Assembly (NCBI RefSeq): GCF_007995015.1
Contig: NZ_VORB01000001.1
Location: 372,001-436,000 of the forward strand
Length of the DNA stretch: 64,000 nucleotides
Source of the DNA: Luteibaculum oceani
Lineage (GTDB): Bacteria; Bacteroidota; Bacteroidia; Flavobacteriales_D; Luteibaculaceae
Direction of reading: 5' to 3'
In this document: one piece after another, positions 50,931 through 54,302 of the stretch
Position numbering within the stretch: the stretch's first letter is position 1
How the letters are laid out: each line of letters begins with the position of its first letter
Program-made: the position numbers and the translations under genes
The notes under the pieces: model-generated
Databases searched by the model: none
Told to the model about the DNA's origin: nothing
Seen by the model: only the letters and a program-made list of their open reading frames with translations

Positions 50931-51004
50931 TCCTCCTTAGCTCAGTTGGTTAGAGCATCTGACTGTTAATCAGAGGGTCCTTGGTTCGAGCCCAAGAGGA
51001 GGAG
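50931..51004 (+). tRNA. tRNA-Asn (GTT)
   Basis: Acceptor TCCTCCT (50931-50937) pairs with AGGAGGA (50997-51003), the anticodon GTT is at 50965-50967, the T-arm is CTTGG/CCAAG, and the discriminator is G. CCA is not encoded. Its 3' part is copied downstream at 51147 and 51575 (see repeats). Confidence 0.96.
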
Positions 51005-51007
51005 CAA
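50966..51007 (+). repeat. 42-bp direct repeat, copy 1 (tRNA-Asn 3' part)
   Basis: From the second anticodon base to just past the tRNA 3' end. Identical to 51575-51616, 609 bp downstream. Duplication of a tRNA 3' end is the footprint expected of an insertion at a tRNA gene. Confidence 0.9.
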
Positions 51008-51014
51008 GAAAGGT

Positions 51015-51048
51015 AAAAACCCGGAGCAAAACGCTTCGGGTTTTTTTT
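51015..51048 (+). terminator. Terminator hairpin 1, after tRNA-Asn
   Basis: Stem CCCGGAGC (51020-51027) / GCTTCGGG (51033-51040), then eight Ts. First of three related hairpins, each just after a tRNA 3' end copy. Confidence 0.9.
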
Positions 51049-51118
51049 GTGCCACAAATCGAAGTAAAACTTGCCTCTTGGGCGAGAAGTTTATGCCGAT
51101 GTATTTTTTCGAGGGAAG
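51049..51118 (+). repeat. 70-bp direct repeat, copy 1
   Basis: Differs from 51655-51724 at only three positions by my reading. It contains CCTCTTGGGC, the reverse complement of the tRNA 3'-end segment GCCCAAGAGG. Confidence 0.9.
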
Positions 51119-51156
51119 CATTACCGTAGAAAAAAACCATCGGTAAGCCCAAGAGG
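51074..51156. repeat. Long imperfect inverted repeat
   Basis: CCTCTTGGGC (51074-51083) pairs with GCCCAAGAGG (51147-51156). Inside it, the CCGATG-plus-T-run segment (from about 51095) pairs with the A-run-plus-CATCGG segment ending near 51143. Transcribed, it would form a long hairpin with a bulged left arm. Confidence 0.75.
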
Positions 51157-51205
51157 AGGAGCAACAAATTAAAACCCGAAGCAAAACGCTTCGGGTTTTT
51201 TTATG
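51147..51205 (+). repeat. Second copy of the tRNA-Asn 3'-end tail
   Basis: Begins GCCCAAGAGGAGGAGCAA, as at 50990 and 51599, with no tRNA body in front of it. The tail runs into terminator hairpin 2 and closely matches the tail at 51599-51657. Confidence 0.85.
51171..51202 (+). terminator. Terminator hairpin 2
   Basis: Perfect 12-bp stem AAAACCCGAAGC / GCTTCGGGTTTT with a 5-nt loop and T-run, about 70 bp upstream of the GIY-YIG gene. Confidence 0.88.
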
Positions 51206-51275
51206 GGTTAAATCGGATGGATCTTGAGGTGTTTTATTACCTTAAAATAAAGGATCTCTCGAAGCATTATTTACC

Positions 51276-51578
51276 ATGCACTATCTCTACATTATATACT
51301 CGCCTTGTAAAGACTTGTATTATGTTGGAGAAAGTAGTCACCCATGGAATAGGTTATCGCAACACAACGAGACCATTCGAACTAAGTACACTAATAGAGC
51401 CCATGATTGGGAGCTTAAAGCTGTATTTAAGATTACCAACAAATCTGAGGCTCGAAAGATTGAAAACTTCATAAAACGGCAAAAAAGTAGACCTTTAATT
51501 CTCCGTCTTTGTGATCCTGATTTTATTCCCGAGGGGCGATTAGCTCAGTTGGTTAGAGTCCCGCAGCTGCGGGATTAA
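51276..51578 (+). CDS. Small GIY-YIG nuclease family protein
   Basis: 100 residues. The GIY-YIG core is YLYIIYSP...LYYVGES, with conserved-looking Arg26 (WNRLSQH), His30 and Glu63 (KIENFIKRQKSR). It is the short stand-alone type, with no DNA-binding domain. The catalytic core ends near residue 80; the last 15 residues (GRLAQLVRVPQLRD) are translated from the tRNA-like sequence that begins at 51533. No good ribosome site is visible. It is flanked by duplicated tRNA and terminator segments, so it may be cargo or driver of that duplication. Function unproven. Confidence 0.8.
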   Translation: MHYLYIIYSPCKDLYYVGESSHPWNRLSQHNETIRTKYTNRAHDWELKAVFKITNKSEARKIENFIKRQKSRPLILRLCDPDFIPEGRLAQLVRVPQLRD

Positions 51579-51613
51579 TCAGAGGGTCCTTGGTTCGAGC
51601 CCAAGAGGAGGAG
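51533..51613 (+). pseudogene. Chimeric tRNA-like pseudogene
   Basis: It starts GGGGCGATTAGCTCAG, which looks like the 5' half of an Ile- or Ala-type tRNA, and ends with the exact 3' half of tRNA-Asn. The acceptor halves GGGGCGA and AGGAGGA cannot pair. The anticodon arm is replaced by a 16-bp palindrome, so no anticodon remains. It cannot be a working tRNA. Confidence 0.8.
51559..51574. repeat. Perfect 16-bp palindrome in place of the anticodon arm
   Basis: TCCCGCAGCTGCGGGA reads the same on both strands. It stands between tRNA segments that in the intact tRNA-Asn are separated by ten bases (50956-50965). Unusually GC-rich for this region. Confidence 0.9.
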
Positions 51614-51616
51614 CAA
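51575..51616 (+). repeat. 42-bp direct repeat, copy 2 (tRNA-Asn 3' part)
   Basis: Exact copy of 50966-51007, forming the 3' half of the chimeric tRNA-like sequence. Confidence 0.9.
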
Positions 51617-51622
51617 CAAATT

Positions 51623-51654
51623 AAAACCCGGAGCGATATGCCTCGGGTTTTTTT
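51623..51654 (+). terminator. Terminator hairpin 3
   Basis: Stem CCCGGAGC (51627-51634) / GCCTCGGG (51640-51647) with one mismatch and a T-run. Would end transcripts of the GIY-YIG gene. Confidence 0.8.
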
Positions 51655-51724
51655 GTGCCGTAAATCGAAGTAAAACTTGCCTCTTGGGCGAGAAGTTCAT
51701 GCCGATGTATTTTTTCGAGGGAAG
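51655..51724 (+). repeat. 70-bp direct repeat, copy 2
   Basis: 67 of 70 positions match 51049-51118. Here the right arm of the long hairpin is missing; a small GTCC/GGAC hairpin follows instead. Confidence 0.9.
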
Positions 51725-52014
51725 AATGTCCGTAAAAGGACAACTAGCACCTTGCCTGAATAAAGCAATTTGCTTTCCGCCAGTATTTTTAAGTAGGTCT
51801 CAGGTTTGTAAACGGGATTAATGGCAAAAAAAAGTCCTTCACATTAATGCTTAAGATGCGGGCACAACTACTATATAATGGGTACTCCTTGTTGAACACC
51901 GAGATAATTATGTTGGCGTCTAAAAGGGCTTGGTCATTTTTTTCGCTTGTAAAATTCGGCTTTCATTTGTGTACAATCTCGCTCATTACTAAGATATCTT
52001 CTCCAAGCTATGCC
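51725..52014. other. 290-bp gap before the sulfatase gene
   Basis: Contains a hairpin-rich stretch: AAAGCAA/TTGCTTT (51762-51776) inside a CCTGA/TCAGG pair (51755-51759 with about 51799-51803). The frame from 51847 is open into the sulfatase but lies upstream of its promoter box and is judged untranslated. Confidence 0.5.
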
Positions 52015-52022
52015 TATATTGG
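52015..52022 (+). promoter_or_regulatory. Probable -7 promoter box of the sulfatase-FGE pair
   Basis: TATATTGG, 16 nt before the ATG at 52039. It supports that start over the one at 51847. Confidence 0.45.
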
Positions 52023-52038
52023 ACCCAAAGCGTTTTTT

Positions 52039-53598
52039 ATGCATTTACCAGCCACTCTATTTCTTTCCTTGATCCTGTTCTCTTGCCAAAATATCGAGGT
52101 AAAGGAAACCCAGAAACCTAACATCATATTTATCTCCGTGGATGATCTTCGCCCCGACCTTGGAGCCTACGGAAATCCACACATAAAAACACCTAACATA
52201 GATGCTTTTGCCGAGGAGGCACTGCTTTTAGAAAATGCTTATTGCCAGGCCGCAGTTTGCGCGCCTTCTAGGGCTAGTCTTATGCAAGGTATCCGACCCG
52301 ATTCTACCAAAGTTTGGCACTTAGGTGATGAATTCAGAAAAATAAACCCCAATGCGGTGACCATGCCGCAATATTTTCATAATTACGGCTACTACACGGT
52401 TAACATTGGGAAGATTTTTCACAACTATATGCCCGATTCGGTATCCTGGGATGAGCCAGATTTAAAACCAGCACCATTTAACGGTCCAGATTCTCATTTG
52501 CGCGATGCTGAAACCTATTATCATACGGAGGACGCGCAAAAAATACAGCTTGAAAGAAGGAAAGAAATCCTTGCCCGATGGCCAGAGGGGAGAAAAGTGT
52601 ACGCCGATGGTTGGTATAGCGGTCCTGCCTATGAAGTTGTGGATTTACCGGATTCCATGTTGTACGATGGACTGCAAACCAAATTGGCGCTGCAAACTTT
52701 AAAGCGCCTTAAAGAAAAGGAACAACCCATATTTTTAGGATTGGGTTATTTCCGGCCTCATTTACCTTTTGTAGCCCCAAAAAAGTATTGGGACATGTAC
52801 CCTGCGGGTAGTTTACCGCCTGCGGTTAATCCCTTTCTTCCAAAAAATGCCCCGCCCATGGCGGCTAATGCGAGCTACGAGTTAAGAAACTATGCTGGGT
52901 TTAGAAATTTACCTCGTCCCGAGGGGGCTCCCCTTGCTGCTGATTCTGCCGATATTTTAAAACGAGGCTATTACGCCTGTGTTAGCTATGTGGATGCCTG
53001 TATTGGAGAGTTGGTTGCCGGATTAAAGGAATTGGGGATTTACGACAATAGTATTATCGTTATATGGGGTGATCACGGCTGGAAATTAGGAGAGCACAAC
53101 GGCTGGGGGAAACAAACCAATTTTAATATCGATACCAAAGTACCCCTGCTGATTAAATATCCTGGTCAGAAGCAAGGTTTGAAGTCACCAGCACTAGTGG
53201 AGTTAGTAGACATGTTTCCAACCCTTTGCGATTTGGCGGATGTACCCAAAGCTGGTTATTTTCAGGGAATCAGTATGCAACCGCTTTTCGAGAATCCCAA
53301 TCGGGAATGGAAATCAGCCGTTTTTTCTCAGTTTAGACGTAGACCTAGAATATCCTATGATGGTAAGGAGTACATGGGTTATGCTATGCAAACCGAGCGT
53401 TACCGTTACATAGAGTGGTACACTTGGGATAATGAAAACAAAATAAGAGGCGAGTTAAAGGCTAGGGAATTATACGATCATTTTCAGGATCCAGACGAAA
53501 ACATAAACCGGGCAGAGGAAGATGAGAATAAGGCCTTGGTAGAAAGTCTTTCTAAAAAGTTAGCACAAGGATGGCGAGCGGCGGTACCTACACCATAA
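52039..53598 (+). CDS. Lipoprotein sulfatase (iduronate-2-sulfatase-like)
   Basis: 519 residues from MHLPATLFLSLILFSC, a lipoprotein signal with acylated Cys16. The sulfatase core has metal-binding Asp35-Asp36 (FISVDDLRPD) and the modification motif C74-APSR, whose Cys is converted to formylglycine. VDMFPTLCDLADVP and GDHGWKLGEHNGWGK are also typical. It hydrolyses sulfate esters, probably on a sulfated glycan such as an algal polysaccharide (inferred). The FGE-like gene that could activate it begins inside its 3' end. Confidence 0.92.
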   Translation: MHLPATLFLSLILFSCQNIEVKETQKPNIIFISVDDLRPDLGAYGNPHIKTPNIDAFAEEALLLENAYCQAAVCAPSRASLMQGIRPDSTKVWHLGDEFRKINPNAVTMPQYFHNYGYYTVNIGKIFHNYMPDSVSWDEPDLKPAPFNGPDSHLRDAETYYHTEDAQKIQLERRKEILARWPEGRKVYADGWYSGPAYEVVDLPDSMLYDGLQTKLALQTLKRLKEKEQPIFLGLGYFRPHLPFVAPKKYWDMYPAGSLPPAVNPFLPKNAPPMAANASYELRNYAGFRNLPRPEGAPLAADSADILKRGYYACVSYVDACIGELVAGLKELGIYDNSIIVIWGDHGWKLGEHNGWGKQTNFNIDTKVPLLIKYPGQKQGLKSPALVELVDMFPTLCDLADVPKAGYFQGISMQPLFENPNREWKSAVFSQFRRRPRISYDGKEYMGYAMQTERYRYIEWYTWDNENKIRGELKARELYDHFQDPDENINRAEEDENKALVESLSKKLAQGWRAAVPTP

Positions 53599-54302
53599 AA
53601 TTGGCCTTAATGCTCCTGATTTTTTGCGGAATTGATGGGTGCGGAAAAAATGAAAATTATAAGATAAAATTTGCGGCTAACATAGCCGGAGATTCTAGAG
53701 AGGTTAGTGTTGCTGAGTTTAGATTATTTATAGAGGAAACAGGTTATAAAACTACAGCAGATAGCTTTGGTTGGTCGGGTTATTTTGATACCACCAAAGG
53801 AGCATGGGGAATTGCTAGGGGCGCAAATTGGCGGCGTATCGATGGGGTAAATATGAATCCCCAGAATTGGCCGGTAACCCAGGTGAGTTACTACGATGCC
53901 TGTGCATATTGTGCCTGGAAAAATGGTCGCTTACCAACCGCGTCTGAATGGGATGCTATGGCGAGCAAACTCAAGGGAACTGGAAATATTTGGCAGGGAA
54001 CCTTTCCCATAAAAAATAAAGAGGTGGATGGTTATTCGGCATTGGCTCCCGTTGGAAGTTTTTTATCTAACAAGGAGGGGTTTTATGATTTAGCTGGAAA
54101 TGTTTGGGAATGGACCAGCAGCATCGCACCTCAACCCCAAATAAAATTGGAAGAAGTTGATGGGGCCCATAGGATCATTAAAGGAGGGAGTTATTTGTGT
54201 ATAGAAAACGGGTGCGAAGGGTATAAACCAGAGGCCTTTCAGCATACAGCCGCCAATAGTGGCACCAACCACTTAGGGTTTCGCTGTGTTTACGATTTGT
54301 AG
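53571..54302 (+). CDS. Exported formylglycine-generating enzyme (SUMF1 family)
   Basis: 243 residues. The C-terminal FGE core shows EVSVAEFRLFIEETGY, FGWSGYF, PVTQVSYYDACAYCAW, RLPTASEWDAMA, GFYDLAGNVWEWTSS and GGSYLC. The active-site Cys pair C210/C215 has the CxxxxC spacing of true FGE, which oxidises sulfatase Cys to formylglycine. An N-terminal hydrophobic stretch ending in IDGC (Cys24) looks like a lipoprotein signal. The first strand of the family (PGGxFxMG) is missing. It overlaps the sulfatase by 28 nt; an internal ATG at 53610 is an alternative start. Confidence 0.88.
   Translation: MASGGTYTIKLALMLLIFCGIDGCGKNENYKIKFAANIAGDSREVSVAEFRLFIEETGYKTTADSFGWSGYFDTTKGAWGIARGANWRRIDGVNMNPQNWPVTQVSYYDACAYCAWKNGRLPTASEWDAMASKLKGTGNIWQGTFPIKNKEVDGYSALAPVGSFLSNKEGFYDLAGNVWEWTSSIAPQPQIKLEEVDGAHRIIKGGSYLCIENGCEGYKPEAFQHTAANSGTNHLGFRCVYDL

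Follow-up and report, generated by a model that had tools for sequence, protein, structure and literature searches.

Phylum-wide tRNA-associated GIY-YIG units in Bacteroidota, candidate minimal homing-like elements that leave the target tRNA intact

How did parts of a tRNA-Asn gene come to stand on both sides of a small nuclease gene, and what kind of unit do they form together? The locus lies in a window of 64,000 nucleotides from Luteibaculum oceani (GCF_007995015.1, contig NZ_VORB01000001.1, positions 372,001-436,000 of the forward strand); coordinates of this locus are window positions, and its stranded features are all on the plus strand. An intact tRNA-Asn (gtt) gene at 50931-51005, identified by ARAGORN and by Rfam RF00005 at 69 bits, is followed by its terminator-like hairpin (51015-51048) and, further downstream, by a 100-aa GIY-YIG nuclease ORF (51276-51578; Pfam PF01541, E 9e-15). 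Sequence comparison revealed that this ORF ends inside a chimeric pseudo-tRNA, which is composed of tRNA-Asn bases 7-25 with the D arm (51540-51558), a perfect 16-bp palindrome, TCCCGCAGCTGCGGGA, in place of bases 26-35 (51559-51574, unstranded), and bases 36-75 in a form identical to the intact gene (51575-51614). The D arm, the palindrome, and the sequence from base 36 on supply the last ~13 codons of the ORF (LAQLVRVPQLRD) together with the stop codon, and a third terminator copy follows at 51623-51653.

The preliminary description of this locus had reported a 42-bp identical repeat of the tRNA-Asn 3' half, a 70-bp repeat matching at 67 of 70 positions, a GIY-YIG gene between the repeats, and no integrase, and all of these observations hold. 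The first repeat (50966-51007 and 51575-51616) aligns over 46 nt at 98%, with the first mismatch at base 43, and the second (51049-51118 and 51655-51724) shows 67/70 by direct reading and aligns over 93 nt at 91%. We found no further integrase-sized ORF between the repeats; a Y1 (HUH) transposase is absent, and the GIY-YIG gene is the only one identified in the unit. When the region was compared with Rfam, no family was found for the hairpin or the chimera, and no intron or ribozyme was detected. Directly downstream of the unit (51847-54302) lie a sulfatase gene and a sulfatase-modifying-factor-like (FGE-sulfatase) gene, an ordinary pair.

The order of tRNA end, terminator, and 70-bp block does occur twice, but what had been taken for one 607-bp unit turned out to be two types of element side by side. 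The 70-bp block and the third tRNA tail together form a single bulged hairpin, CCTCTTGGGC-GAGAAGTTTA...TCGGTAA-GCCCAAGAGG (51074-51156; fold -35.5 kcal/mol), with a left arm CCTCTTGGGC, a bulge GAGAAGTTTA, an inner stem, and a right arm GCCCAAGAGG that is the 3' strand of the tRNA-Asn T stem. The third tail (51146-51162, a copy of tRNA-Asn bases 59-75) and the terminator-like hairpin behind it (the second terminator copy, 51171-51204) are present as described, but the tail belongs to this second, GIY-less element, and the block after the chimera (51680-51724) is a truncated second copy that retains the left arm, bulge, and inner stem and lacks the right arm and tail. The outer stem of such tail hairpins consists of the tRNA T-stem 3' strand and its inverted copy, followed by the 5' bulge GAGAAGTYTA and then the inner stem, and the outer arms vary with the tRNA (CCTCTTGGGC for Asn, GACACGAC for Met). 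In other genomes, tail hairpins are found ~40-75 bp behind tRNA-Asn, Met, Ala, Gln, Lys, Leu, and Thr without a GIY gene, sometimes in tandem with periods of 94-152 bp, and the consensus GGGC-GAGAAGTYTAT(G/A/C)CCG...CGG(T/G)AA-GCCC is present at 51074-51162 and 51680-51724 in the window and at L302, L286, L277, L317, L312, L330, and L093. We rejected the tail hairpin as a dispersed repeat, as the L. oceani genome has it only at the window locus. The 178-bp tail repeats of Escherichia coli tyrT are tandem units containing the tRNA 3' tail and in this resemble the tail-hairpin arrays, but their sequence is different, and we know of no GIY gene or conserved bulged hairpin in them.

The architecture of the GIY-bearing unit recurs in ~100 loci, and its arrangement in the window is therefore not due to chance. 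Behind an intact tRNA with its terminator comes, at a median tRNA-GIY distance of 50 bp, a small GIY-YIG ORF that reads into a pseudo-tRNA of the same isotype, in which one arm is a palindrome (mostly TCCCG...CGGGA); the pseudo-tRNA closes with the tRNA 3' end, often plus a terminator copy, and the whole unit of roughly 300-600 bp encodes the GIY-YIG nuclease alone. In the order sample, the protein was matched in 76 of 199 genomes, with many matches arranged in tandem at spacings of 290-500 bp or lying at contig ends, and 46 of the 57 informative loci had a same-strand tRNA nearby (38 within 300 bp upstream, 4 further upstream, and 4 downstream), the isotypes being Val, Asn, Phe, Asp, Ala, Leu, Met, Arg, Pro, and Ser. 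Named Bacteroidota genomes contributed 78 loci (Flavobacteriales, Chitinophagales, Cytophagales, Sphingobacteriales, and Bacteroidales), and 61 of the 69 informative ones had a same-strand tRNA within 300 bp upstream, which was tRNA-Asn in 60. No locus in either set had a tRNA on the opposite strand within 300 bp, and chance placement beside a tRNA is estimated at well below 1% per gene (~36 tRNA genes in 2.9 Mb). The preliminary description had named a family lying mostly away from tRNA genes as evidence against its proposal; what we find is a phylum-wide family of tRNA-associated GIY-YIG units, larger than first reported.

The L. oceani genome holds a second GIY-YIG gene after tRNA-Asp, and a 5' pseudo-tRNA bearing a palindrome lies upstream of this tRNA-Asp. 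It also has GIY-less scars at tRNA-Arg (5' side), at tRNA-Met (a palindrome in the T loop, behind the gene), and at tRNA-Val, where two pseudo-copies stand in tandem at the contig 13 end. Pseudo-tRNAs on the 5' side, made of leader, tRNA 5' half, and palindrome without a GIY gene of their own, were also seen upstream of intact tRNAs at L001 (1244-1336), L012 (1400-1490), L024 (reversed, 1201-1376, in tandem), and L032 (reversed, 1-90). Another small GIY-YIG gene of this genome (L003, C4:92527) has no tRNA near it and lies among repeats with the motif TGTCATTTCGAACG..., possibly a REP-like association. Two copies are on short contigs of MAGs labelled Thioalkalivibrio (L206) and Chlorobiota (L221), and the former may be mis-binned Bacteroidota DNA.

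Across these loci, the encoded protein is ~80-100 aa long and is a GIY-YIG domain almost alone. The invariant residues Y16, G18, R26, and E63 (alignment A1) place it in the GIY-YIG superfamily, and the ORF is under purifying selection, with a median dN/dS of 0.14 in a codon comparison of 59 non-independent pairs. Collections were scanned with the Asn-lineage alignment A2, profile A1 being too diverse. On a weakly resolved tree of 157 GIY domains and 79 columns, tRNA isotype changes 18 times, compared to a minimum of 10 and a shuffled mean of 41.8, and none of 200 shuffles gave a value as low. The site of interruption is likewise linked to lineage. In the Asn lineage, a 16-bp insert of the form TCCCG-N6-CGGGA replaces tRNA bases 26-35; of 57 Asn loci, 35 have exactly the junction 25|36 and most of the others one close to it, and many Asn loci carry an additional palindrome or insertion in the T arm. 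The whole anticodon arm is replaced in the Val lineage (TCCCGATgcatagcaATCGGGA), the Asp lineage carries TCCCCAA..TTGGGGA, the interruption lies in the T loop in the Phe, Leu, and Val/Met lineages and in the D arm in one Ala element, while the 3' halves of the pseudo-tRNAs match the local tRNA. The exact junction pattern was found at 11 places in 7 genomes of a 395-genome phylum sample, all with complementary outer pairs, compared to 0 for the reversed control.

Occupied and empty alleles were found at both tRNA-Val and tRNA-Asn loci. At an orthologous tRNA-Val locus within one genus, a first lineage with anticodon-arm palindromes is present at L101, L104, and L106 and a second with T-loop palindromes at L103 and L107, and the remaining sites hold a GIY remnant (1), another GIY (1), or no GIY (4, 1 of them with a palindromic tRNA-tail scar). 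The GIYs of L103 and L107 group with those of tRNA-Met (98% support), among which L138 also has its interruption in the T loop, at base 55. Comparison of the occupied L101 with the empty L102 revealed that the flank past the pseudo-tRNA continues the empty-site flank, and that the intact tRNA of L101 keeps the empty-site sequence, only the pseudo-tRNA being altered. Throughout the order, the kinase/tRNA-Asn neighbourhood is conserved, with a GIY beside tRNA-Asn in three genomes (G000, G036, and G003), only scars in four (G008, G017, G001, and G002), and most remaining genomes empty; the occupied flank of G036 continues that of the empty tRNA-Asn site of G016, from the same genus. With its gene outside any intron or intein and with both occupied and empty alleles, the unit shares these two features with free-standing homing elements. 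The earlier proposal, a minimal element that targets tRNA and has a nuclease as its sole cargo, was to be doubted if relatives had no empty site; such sites exist, and with neither of its two named counter-observations borne out, the proposal is supported.

With little more than even confidence, we lean toward reading the unit as a minimal homing-like, SegB-like selfish element that resides at tRNA genes and leaves the target tRNA intact. The small GIY-YIG protein would be an active nuclease that probably cuts the tRNA gene, or a hairpin that it extrudes, at an arm that depends on the lineage (the anticodon arm for Asn, Val, and Asp, the T loop for Phe, Leu, and Val/Met). With an occupied copy as template, recombinational repair would then insert the tRNA 3' part, terminator, GIY gene, tRNA 5' fragment, and palindrome, rebuilding an intact tRNA upstream and leaving the old 3' half behind the palindrome as a dead pseudo-tRNA, with the palindrome serving as either a scar or an uncuttable copy. 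Further out-of-register repair would give rise to tandem arrays, loss of the ORF would leave pseudo-tRNA scars, and the units would still be mobile at present.

Several observations weigh against this homing-like reading. Classical homing destroys its own target site, whereas here an intact, presumably cuttable tRNA stays beside the nuclease gene, and self-protection is a difficulty because the rebuilt tRNA has the same sequence as the empty site. The near-bare protein has no recognisable DNA-binding domain that would confer specificity, and the tree of the Asn lineage partly follows host taxonomy, so that much of its inheritance may have been vertical. Searches of phage, plasmid, and viral-contig collections found no relative of the window protein. 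The window protein has no match in PHROGs and is thus not placed in the SegB family of phage homing endonucleases, and one relative (L038) matches phrog_5123 weakly (E 9.5e-4). Finally, homing alone leaves the palindrome unexplained.

The palindrome would be central if the protein were instead a structure-specific (SLX1-like) enzyme whose substrate is the palindrome or an extruded tRNA hairpin, with palindromes swapped or inserted into tRNA arms and the homology of the tRNA halves only anchoring recombination, as a GIY-YIG analogue of REP/RAYT. By profile, the nearest solved relatives are the UPF0213 proteins and the structure-specific nuclease SLX1, and the palindromes occupy former tRNA hairpin positions. 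Among 112 palindromes, which were searched for with N6 unconstrained and are not all independent, the outer two N6 pairs are complementary in 108 and 101 and the free centre pair in 44, and the 32 different cores include some in both orientations (CACATG/CATGTG and CACCTG/CAGGTG). The terminator hairpin loop at L017 (G162 contig 104) is inverted between near-identical tandem units (GCCATCATTTCTGATGGC / GCCATCAGAAATGATGGC), suggesting hairpin flipping, and the existence of GIY-less pseudo-tRNAs also fits. On the other hand, template-switch correction of quasi-palindromes can maintain perfect palindromes without a dedicated enzyme, and TCCCG palindromes form no large dispersed family in the L. 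oceani genome (26 versus 12 in reversed controls), where a genome-wide REP family was not supported. As a whole, we consider this alternative rather unlikely. We raise as a tentative possibility that the units represent a new minimal class of mobile DNA in Bacteroidota that spreads by hairpin swapping, in which a structure-specific GIY-YIG protein would open a tRNA arm or cruciform and a self-complementary palindrome would replace the arm, yielding, at many isotypes, units that are autonomous when they carry GIY and non-autonomous when they are pseudo-tRNAs or tail hairpins.

Tandem arrays are common, and 22 of the 78 named-genome loci have at least two GIY matches. Such arrays could act as a tRNA dosage device useful to host or element, in which breaks amplify tRNA segments under tRNA-cleaving defences or toxins; SegB of phage T6 provides a precedent, and two intact tRNA-Asn copies stand upstream of the GIY at L200, L209, L213, L218, L222, and L223. 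However, most arrays multiply the dead pseudo-tRNA and GIY rather than the intact tRNA, making such a device improbable. We give still less credence to passive tandem duplication of tRNA and terminator with decay, the GIY gene being a hitchhiker: tRNA loci are duplication-prone and GIY-less tail repeats exist (L302, L286, and L277), but the linkage of lineage to isotype largely contradicts it, and it would not explain one protein lineage tied to tRNA-Asn at 60 of 69 loci across the phylum, the one-strand placement, the fixed 25|36 junction, or the purifying selection. Equally far-fetched is a function at the RNA level, with the pseudo-tRNA transcript as a decoy or regulator and the GIY protein as an RNase, for although the palindromes would form RNA hairpins too and the unit would lie inside the tRNA transcription unit, the pseudo-tRNA usually begins at base 7-15 without an acceptor 5' strand and therefore cannot fold or be processed as a tRNA, and our reading of the palindrome cores gave no G-U enrichment in the variable pairs.

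The homing-like reading that we prefer draws on SegB, a free-standing GIY-YIG homing endonuclease in the tRNA region of phages T4 and T6 (PMC2988022, PMC13096335). T6 SegB cuts within tRNA genes at the motif RAWTSGAAC, and its catalysis drives tandem amplification, for which the authors invoke recombination of the tRNA 5' region with the segB 3' region; they also note inefficient cutting of the donor allele and repair capacity (PMC13096335). By our reading, this motif is the complement of the tRNA T-loop sequence GTTCSAWTY and would fit the T-loop lineages. In both systems, a GIY-YIG gene lies beside tRNA genes, with microhomology between its 3' region and the tRNA 5' region, and the question of self-protection arises. 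Unlike SegB, the units described here are a few hundred bp long, reside in bacterial chromosomes, encode a near-bare domain of ~80-100 aa, mostly keep to one isotype per protein lineage, and in most cases contain a palindrome-interrupted pseudo-tRNA.

Group I introns and IStrons with homing endonucleases in tRNA genes are likewise selfish units that have to spare tRNA function, but here the tRNA 3' half is rebuilt instead, with no intron or ribozyme detected by Rfam in the region. Integrative elements with att sites at tRNA 3' ends also duplicate that end and leave the gene intact, whereas our unit has a single gene and no integrase, and its repeat includes a 5' tRNA fragment and palindrome. 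REP/RAYT systems share the pairing of a small nuclease gene with palindromes, as well as gene-less palindromic copies, but the nuclease here is GIY-YIG rather than a Y1 transposase, and the copies are found at tRNA loci. Our search of a literature collection with few subscription papers or preprints found no account of such a tRNA/GIY-YIG/palindrome unit.

If the homing-like reading is true, few known selfish elements would be as small as these units, which would persist on essential tRNA genes across much of the phylum by rebuilding their own target and would extend SegB-type tRNA/GIY-YIG biology from phages to bacterial chromosomes. Their small nucleases, whose preferences for tRNA arms apparently differ, would form a natural series, and such units may account for contig breaks at tRNA loci and for GIY-YIG annotations that end in LAQLVR. 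How targets are chosen, how the element protects itself, and what the palindrome does are all directly testable.
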